Shown here one piece after another: positions 46,530 to 48,470 of a DNA stretch of 64,000 bases. Source of the DNA: an uncultured Alphaproteobacteria bacterium (GTDB taxonomy: Bacteria; Pseudomonadota; Alphaproteobacteria; HIMB59; GCA-002718135); contig CACJPV010000001.1 of assembly GCA_902595425.1 (NCBI GenBank), positions 248,001 to 312,000 of the forward strand, written 5' to 3'. Each line of letters opens with the position of its first letter. Within the stretch, counting starts at the first letter, position 1. A model generated the notes under the pieces. That model saw nothing but the letters and a program-made list of their open reading frames with translations, had not been told where the DNA came from and did not search any database. The translations under genes were made by a program, and so were the position numbers.

Positions 46530-46889
46530 TTAACGATTAAAAATTTTTTTCTGTTTATTCAACCATTCTATTACCAAATTTGAAAACTCAAATGATAAAT
46601 AATAATTTTTTATTCTTTTATCTTTTTTACTTTCAATCTTGTTAAAAAATTTTTTATCCAAACCTTCATTAAGTAAATTTTGAATACTAGACCTGGAGCC
46701 TAGTGTTTTTGGTATAATGTTGCACAATTTTTCATAAGATATTCCATCAATATTATTATTAGAAAAAATTTCCATAATAACTGCATTATGTAAAATAGAT
46801 TTATTAAAGAATCTGCCAAAATGATCTGTACTTTCTAAACTAGAGTACAAAGCATTTTTTTTGAGTTTTACAATTTCTTCTGCATTCAT
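46530..46889 (-). CDS. Possible winged-helix (MarR-like) regulator
   Basis: A 119-residue mostly helical protein. Residues about 31-60 (SILHNAVIMEIFSNNNIDGISYEKLCNII), then PKTLGSRSSIQNLLNEGLDKKFFNKIESKKDKRIKNYYLS, have the helix-helix-recognition helix-beta wing pattern of small MarR-type transcription factors: a selection of initiation residues followed by LxxLxxxGLIxRxxxxxDxR-like sequence. It sits directly after the amtB terminator, on the same strand. Target unknown; the MarR link is by pattern only. Confidence 0.5.
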   Translation of the reverse strand: MNAEEIVKLKKNALYSSLESTDHFGRFFNKSILHNAVIMEIFSNNNIDGISYEKLCNIIPKTLGSRSSIQNLLNEGLDKKFFNKIESKKDKRIKNYYLSFEFSNLVIEWLNKQKKIFNR

Positions 46890-46974: not shown

Positions 46975-48261
46975 CTAATCCCTTATTGAATATGCTATAA
47001 CTCCAACCTCTGCTTTATCAGTGCCAAGTTTTTCAGCTTCCTCACTTATTCTTAATCCCATTGAAATTTTTAATAGGTAAATTACAATATATGAAGTGAT
47101 AAAAACAAATAGGCACACTGATATTACACCAAGAAATTGAATACCATATGATGCGTCAAGATTTGTAAAAGGAACAACTAAAGTTCCCCATATACCTGCA
47201 AACATGTGAACAGGTATTGCTCCGACAACATCATCTAGTTTTAAAGAGTTTAGTAATTGTGTACCATAATACATAATTATGCCCCCTATAGCTCCAATAC
47301 CAATAGATAATAATGGCGATGGCATTAAAGGCTCAGCAGTAATAGAAACTAAACCAGCTAGTGCACCGTTTAACATCATAACAATATCAGTTTTTCCGCC
47401 TATTAACCTAGTAATAATAGCTCCTGCCATACATCCTCCACATGCAGCAAGTTGGGTATTCATGAAGATTTTAGACATAGCTGTTGCATCTTCATAAGAC
47501 CCAAGCGCTAGTTGCGATCCTCCGTTAAATCCATACCAACCCATCCATAAAATAAAAGTTCCAAGTGTAACTAAAGGAATTGAAGACGGAGCAAAAGGAG
47601 CCATATTTGCAGGCTCACCTGAATCTGTAAACCTGCCAAGTCTTGGTCCAAGTAATATTACACCTGCTAGTGCAGCTGATCCACCACAAGCATGAACTAA
47701 AGTTGATCCAGCGAAGTCTGAAAAACCAAGTGAATCGAGCCAACCTCCGCCCCACTCCCATCCCATTTGAATTGGGTAAATAAATCCTCCAAGAATTGCT
47801 GCAAATGTAAAAAATGGCCAAATTTTAATTCTTTCAGCTACTGCGCCCGAAACTATTGAAACTGTTGCGCATACAAATAAAGCTTGGAAAAACCAGTCAG
47901 AAGCATCTGAATAGCCAGTATCAAGAGAAGTGTTATCAGTCCAAATTGAAAATGAGCCAATAAATCCCCCCTCTGGGATACCATAACCCATGTTGTACCC
48001 AAATAAGTAAAATACAATTGAAACAATAGCAAATTTACCAATGTTTTTTGCAGCTATTGTTGAAACACTTCTTGTAGTAACTAATCCTGACTCTAAAAAT
48101 AAAAAACCTGCTGCCATCCACATTACTAGAAATCCGCAAACTAAAAACGAAAATGTATTAAGTATGTAGGCAACTTCAGAATCAACCCCAGCCCTTGCAT
48201 AAGAGCTTAAAAATAAAAAAAACGATAAAATACTTAAAAAATAAAGAGTTTTTTTAAACAT
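46975..48261 (-). CDS. amtB: Ammonium transporter (Amt family)
   Basis: Inner-membrane ammonium channel. From the ATG at 48261 the protein has 428 residues; this start is preferred over an upstream in-frame ATG at 48291 because it has a strong Shine-Dalgarno (GGAGG, 48266-48270) and gives a clean signal peptide (FKKTLYFLSILSFFLFLSSYARA). Amt motifs: LVCGFLVMWMAAGFLFLESGLV, FQALFVCATVSIVSGAVAERIK, DFAGSTLVHACGGSAALAGVILLGPR (pore His) and VPVHMFAGIWGTLVVPF (second pore His). No glnK gene is adjacent. Its leader carries two glutamine riboswitches and a ribosome-site-masking helix. Confidence 0.96.
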   Translation of the reverse strand: MFKKTLYFLSILSFFLFLSSYARAGVDSEVAYILNTFSFLVCGFLVMWMAAGFLFLESGLVTTRSVSTIAAKNIGKFAIVSIVFYLFGYNMGYGIPEGGFIGSFSIWTDNTSLDTGYSDASDWFFQALFVCATVSIVSGAVAERIKIWPFFTFAAILGGFIYPIQMGWEWGGGWLDSLGFSDFAGSTLVHACGGSAALAGVILLGPRLGRFTDSGEPANMAPFAPSSIPLVTLGTFILWMGWYGFNGGSQLALGSYEDATAMSKIFMNTQLAACGGCMAGAIITRLIGGKTDIVMMLNGALAGLVSITAEPLMPSPLLSIGIGAIGGIIMYYGTQLLNSLKLDDVVGAIPVHMFAGIWGTLVVPFTNLDASYGIQFLGVISVCLFVFITSYIVIYLLKISMGLRISEEAEKLGTDKAEVGVIAYSIRD

Positions 48262-48342
48262 TAATCCTCCATTATAAATTTCACAAGACACAACTCACCC
48301 TGAGTCATGTGCTACTATTCATGCTTAGCTATGGAAATTAAT
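48260..48342 (-). promoter_or_regulatory. Candidate expression platform: helix masking the amtB Shine-Dalgarno and start
   Basis: In the amtB leader RNA, 5'-AUUAAUUUCCAU (48342-48331) can pair with 5'-AUGGAGGAUUAAU (48272-48260). This gives 12 base pairs (10 Watson-Crick, 2 G-U) with one bulged A at 48265. The second strand contains the Shine-Dalgarno GGAGG and the first two bases of the start codon. The loop between holds a further hairpin (CACA..ACUC-AGGGU-GAGUUGUG, 48289-48311). The first strand begins 8 bases after the second aptamer, so ligand binding could switch translation. The pairing is seen in the sequence; the switching is inference. Confidence 0.6.
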
Positions 48343-48349
48343 ATATAAG

Positions 48350-48404
48350 ATCCGCGTTCCTTCGGTTTAACCTACTTCCGATCTGCTTGCGCAGATTGAA
48401 CGAT
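48350..48404 (-). ncRNA. Glutamine riboswitch (glnA motif), second aptamer
   Basis: Minus-strand RNA with the conserved elements of the glnA RNA: P1 strand CGUUC (48402-48398), an AUCUGC-GCAA-GCAGAU hairpin, the invariant CGGAAGUAG (48380-48372), a small GGU-UAA-ACC hairpin, and GAAGGAACGC closing P1 (GAACG at 48359-48355). All parts are in the order and spacing known for glutamine aptamers. It lies 12 bases after the first aptamer and about 90 bases before the amtB ATG. Confidence 0.9.
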
Positions 48405-48416
48405 TTAATAACTTTG

Positions 48417-48470
48417 CATGCGTTCCTTCGACTTTCGTCTACTTCCGTCATGTAAAACATGATGAACGTA
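48417..48470 (-). ncRNA. Glutamine riboswitch (glnA motif), first aptamer
   Basis: First of two tandem copies in the amtB leader: P1 strand CGUUC (48468-48464), a UCAUG-UUUUA-CAUGA hairpin, the invariant CGGAAGUAG, a GAC-GAAA-GUC hairpin with GNRA loop, then GAAGGAACGC. The hairpin sequences differ from those of the second copy while the core is the same, the covariation pattern expected for two functional aptamers rather than a recent duplication. Glutamine riboswitches are known from cyanobacteria and marine metagenomes and control nitrogen-assimilation genes. Confidence 0.9.

Follow-up and report, generated by a model that had tools for sequence, protein, structure and literature searches.

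The stretch of DNA analysed here, hereafter the window, comprises 64,000 nucleotides from the genome of an uncultured alphaproteobacterium, a streamlined marine bacterium whose assembly amounts to 1.49 Mb in 39 contigs and is 84% complete. The genomes of close relatives bear the label uncultured Alphaproteobacteria, and their AmtB proteins reach 97% identity. On the minus strand, the window encodes an ammonium transporter of 428 amino acids, AmtB (46975-48261, ATG at 48261; PF00909, 329.6 bits), which is 82% identical over its full length to the AmtB of a Pelagibacteraceae genome. A search of the whole window with Rfam cmscan returned exactly two matches to the glutamine-I (glnA) riboswitch model RF01739 (model length 53, gathering cut-off 35 bits), both on the minus strand and upstream of amtB. 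Aptamer 1 occupies positions 48470-48417 (63.1 bits, E 1.3e-11) and aptamer 2 positions 48404-48351 (58.4 bits, E 2.7e-10). Each match extends over model positions 1-53 of 53 and lies far above the cut-off, which bears out the claim of a first-pass annotation, made from the letters alone, that the amtB leader holds two complete aptamers of this type. Both possess a P1 helix of CGUUC and GAACG (48468-48464 with 48425-48421 in aptamer 1, 48402-48398 with 48359-48355 in aptamer 2), the core CGGAAGUAG and the GAAGGAACGC element. The core had been described as invariant; this is correct for the two aptamers of the window but not genus-wide, as the last G of CGGAAGUAG is sometimes an A in other genus leaders. 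The 12 bases said to part the copies are likewise the distance between the Rfam matches, and the P1 helices themselves are separated by a linker of 18 nt (48420-48403). In a set of 20 diverged leaders, two-sided changes that preserve pairing occur at many base pairs of P2 and P3 in both aptamers, in agreement with the earlier statement that the helices differ in sequence yet keep pairing, and P1 of aptamer 1 is invariant. Between the aptamer 2 match and the amtB ATG lie 89 nt. Downstream, on the 3' side of amtB, an ORF of 119 amino acids (46530-46889, minus strand) has no Pfam match; a relative of it, resembling winged-helix regulators, sits between the two amtB genes of a related genome.

RNAs of the glnA class bind glutamine. 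By the covariance model, the two RNAs of the window are members of the glutamine-I family, with which they share the core, the helices, the position in a 5' leader and a full-length match, and glutamine binding is predicted for both. Such RNAs were described in 2010 before genes for PII, glutamine synthetase and ammonium transporters, sometimes in tandem (PMC2864571), and 157 glutamine doublets and four triplets were later counted (PMC9481103, 2022). Neither the tandem arrangement nor the association with an ammonium transporter is therefore new, and the element itself belongs to a known kind. The locus differs from RF01739 occurrences in general in being part of a multi-gene set within one alphaproteobacterial genus. 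Targeted searches found no literature linking glutamine riboswitches to the loss of GlnD or to this clade, and no riboswitch is mentioned in a paper on the AEGEAN-169/HIMB59 lineage (PMC10308909).

The set becomes apparent when related genomes are compared. RF01739 was matched in 60 of 61 genus genomes, where the copy number ranged from one to eight and was mostly even. The sister family, which belongs to the same order and has a one-contig genome of 1,410,127 bases among its members, gave no match in 40 genomes. In a sample of the class, six of 385 genomes carried it, two from this genus and four from another family, in which a single aptamer stands before the gene for a circularly permuted ATP-grasp protein. 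Nearly all leaders extracted from the genus contain two aptamers with a linker of 17-18 nt. Their targets are amtB, a second amtB about 2 kb further on, glnA and an ATP-grasp gene (PF14403), glnA following immediately on the PII gene, with the two aptamers in between. Three leaders appeared as exceptions: one is cut near a contig edge, another has a visible second aptamer that the search pattern missed, and the third (L003) is truly single and precedes a second type of Amt. This second Amt, probably of the methylammonium type, is encoded next to a glutamine-synthetase-like gene (L164:2504-3808, minus strand) and has no riboswitch match in the source genome; it has a single one in genome G034 and, judged by position, in genome G011. 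Genome G034 also contains a 708-aa ORF (L167:1566-3689, minus strand) in which an Amt domain runs in frame into a phosphatase domain of PP2C/RsbU-type appearance. The circularly permuted ATP-grasp gene is preceded by paired riboswitches in the genus and by a single one in the other, unrelated family, and in the genus an upstream ORF of 17-20 amino acids ends at, or adjoining, its start codon.

The first-pass annotation had proposed that RNA sensing may stand in for protein-based nitrogen control in an organism whose amtB has no adjacent glnK. The latter point holds at this locus and across the genus: PII never exceeds one copy per genome and adjoins glnA in the genomes inspected, and no second PII (GlnK) was encountered. 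The source assembly itself contains no PII gene. When the source genome is compared with the glnA region of a relative, the match breaks off within parE, where a contig ends, and beyond that point glnA, its riboswitches, PII, tig, clpP, clpX and lon are all missing; the absence of PII is thus explained by the contig break, and the idea of a PII-free organism was rejected. Of 61 genus genomes, 47 have PII, close to the 46 expected from their completeness, and the gene sits directly upstream of the riboswitch-bearing glnA; a loss of PII-type control is thus not supported. A narrower form of the proposal gains support. The GlnD/GlnE domain PF08335 is found in none of 62 genus genomes, one of them 96% complete, as against all 10 sister-family genomes and three of four genomes of the other riboswitch-bearing family, and TIGR01693 has no match in 17 genus genomes. 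Were the gene universal and its losses independent, the chance of failing to see it in all 62 genomes would be about 1e-40. No genome passes the curated NtrC cut-off of 558.6; the best genus match, at about 190 bits, is probably NtrX, and a further family used for comparison reaches about 520 bits, also just below the cut-off. The T-loop of the genus PII reads RGSTGGID..xYDDEFL where the sister family has KGHTELYRGAEYVVDFL, so that the YRGAEY motif is lost, with a tyrosine still at the position aligned with Tyr51. This change is consistent with relaxed selection on uridylylation.

The sister family supplies the relevant comparison. It controls the same targets, amtB and glnA, through GlnD and PII, with glnK-amtB and glnB-glnA-glnE loci that show no riboswitch at the gathering threshold and only a short glnB-glnA spacer. 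As tig, clpP and clpX lie beside the glnB-glnA loci in both groups, these loci look orthologous. The two families have matching neighbourhoods and the same target genes, and the contrast between them is GlnD and GlnE without a riboswitch on one side, and the riboswitch without GlnD and GlnE on the other. Since GlnD/GlnE are absent from the genus and present in its riboswitch-free relatives, the RNA may have replaced GlnD rather than PII, and we propose that glutamine sensing probably passed from GlnD to the riboswitches, PII being retained. Cases in which RNA supplants a protein as the sensor of one and the same metabolite are difficult to observe, and the contrast between these families makes such a replacement directly testable; what merits attention here is that riboswitch and GlnD occur reciprocally. 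The host group being marine bacteria, its ammonium uptake also bears on nitrogen use in the ocean.

Loss of GlnD does not in itself require a riboswitch. SAR11 reportedly lacks both PII and GlnD, and no glutamine riboswitch was found in the SAR11 amtB leaders examined, among them that of the Pelagibacteraceae amtB whose product is 82% identical to AmtB of the window. The riboswitches of the genus might accordingly be an extra layer over a working protein control, in which an unrelated protein replaces GlnD or PII acts unmodified. The retention of PII and the presence of the NtrX-like regulator (about 190 bits against the NtrC model) would suit such an arrangement, but it has to accommodate the complete lack of the GlnD/GlnE domain, the limit of one PII per genome and the disappearance of YRGAEY from the T-loop, and we regard it as rather unlikely.

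How the aptamers may act on amtB is suggested by the sequences that surround them. The linker between them, CATGCAAAGTTATTAAAT (48403-48420, minus strand), is near-invariant in the genus: among 127 distinct leaders of the four gene families, CAUGC is conserved in 127 and AGUUAU in 126. Downstream of aptamer 2 lies a switch strand, TAATTTCCATAGCTAAGCATG (48320-48340, minus strand), near-invariant in the leaders of both amtB genes and of the ATP-grasp gene and replaced by the variant TTTCATAACTAGAGCATG in glnA leaders. Within these near-invariant segments, linker CAUGCAAAGUUAU and downstream strand AUAGCUAAGCAUG are complementary at 11 of 13 positions (permutation p about 7e-5), although a generic search of shuffled downstream flanks attains equal complementarity in 6-8% of cases. 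The predicted helix, P0, would pair CATGC (48420-48416) and AGTTAT (48413-48408) of the linker with GCATG (48324-48320) and ATAGCT (48332-48327) of the switch strand, all on the minus strand. In glnA leaders both of its sides are altered, with one extra inner-loop base per side and UAACU for UAGCU, and pairing is kept. RNAalifold predicts the lower P0 helix in 20 of 20 leaders. So placed, P0 would surround aptamer 2 and adjoin P1 of aptamer 1 without a spacer. The arrangement resembles tandem (pseudo-cooperative) riboswitches, likewise two aptamers of one class in series, and departs from them in serving one start codon, in showing no terminator and in this predicted enclosure of aptamer 2 by a helix formed from the linker.

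The switch strand has other potential partners. Its TTTCCAT segment (within 48320-48340, minus strand) is a possible anti-RBS strand, UUUCCAU being complementary to the amtB ribosome site AUGGAGG, where the Shine-Dalgarno GGAGG (48266-48270, minus strand) lies inside ATGGAGGATTAATG. The glnA variant AUUUCAUA is in turn complementary to UAUGAAAU at the glnA start codon. In an RNAalifold alternative, GGAA on the 3' side of aptamer 2 pairs with UU(C/U)C of the switch strand, a G-C pair becoming G-U in glnA leaders. One strand with mutually exclusive pairings fits a translational switch. Because the MAFFT alignment sets amtB and glnA linkers out of register, its counts were restricted to the helices of the aptamers, the lower part of P0 and the pairing of GGAA; P0 is near-invariant and offers too little sequence change to be tested by covariation, and the RBS helix is likewise too conserved for covariation to decide. 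No terminator-like site was found, so that a transcription terminator was dropped as the expression platform and control is probably translational.

The sign of this control was approached by partition-function folding, with contradictory results, one form of the model leaning toward activation and the other giving nothing clear. In the latter form, the cost of opening the ribosome site shifts between states by medians of -0.9 to +0.3 kcal/mol, with mixed sign. In an earlier form, enforcing both aptamers drives P0 up to near 1 and the RBS-blocking helix down to near 0 in three gene families and to 0.18 in glnA leaders; the glnA start codon becomes more accessible (from 0.09 to 0.62), and Shine-Dalgarno accessibility in the first amtB goes from 0.32 to 0.34. 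On physiological grounds, we lean toward glutamine repressing rather than activating these genes. At low glutamine, the switch strand (UUUCCAUAGCU..GCAUG) would be sequestered by the linker together with GGAA in the 3' part of aptamer 2, so that the ribosome site stays open. Binding of glutamine would allow P1 of aptamer 2 to form and release the UUUCCAU strand, which would then cover the ribosome site and stop ammonium uptake. From the pairing of two aptamers, a steeper response to glutamine may reasonably be inferred.

In the opposite scheme, glutamine-bound aptamers would stabilise P0 and thereby pull the switch strand off the ribosome site. The geometry of P0, enclosing aptamer 2 and directly abutting P1 of aptamer 1, lends itself to this, as do the enforced-aptamer values for P0 and the RBS-blocking helix and the opening of the glnA start codon. 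Activation of amtB and glnA by glutamine would nevertheless contradict physiological need, the Shine-Dalgarno accessibility of the first amtB is almost flat and the differences in opening cost are small and mixed; such an ON switch seems to us the less likely option. An activating glutamine riboswitch does exist in cyanobacteria, at gifB, the gene for a glutamine synthetase inhibitor. It is of the same aptamer class as the RNAs described here and has a different target.

That one aptamer alone senses glutamine in the cell, the other being a structural scaffold or a relic, would suit the use of a single expression region and the existence of single-aptamer loci such as the one before the methylammonium-type Amt, but it is improbable given that both aptamers score well above the cut-off with intact cores and both show compensatory stem changes across the 20 leaders.

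Returning to repression by glutamine as the preferred sign, we consider it likely, from comparative sequence data, that the amtB leader carries two serial glutamine-I aptamers setting AmtB translation by intracellular glutamine, and that these riboswitches took over the role of GlnD while PII was kept. Both aptamers share a single ribosome site and start codon, and folding resolves no two separate platforms. A more specific version, in which nested tandem riboswitches replaced GlnD in a genus that lost GlnD, GlnE and GlnK, with the linker helix coupling both aptamers to the one ribosome site, is offered tentatively, as a proposal that could well go too far.

Glutamine riboswitches are also contained in marine phages (PMC9004378). 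When viral contigs were searched with a looser tandem pattern, most matches were due to chance, and about 14 contigs had real tandem glutamine aptamers before small ORFs. Their linkers are GCATTATCAT-like, and the genus-type linker was found in none of the viral contigs. In 12 viral contigs noted individually, the tandem aptamers precede small ORFs and are joined by a short linker unlike that of the genus.
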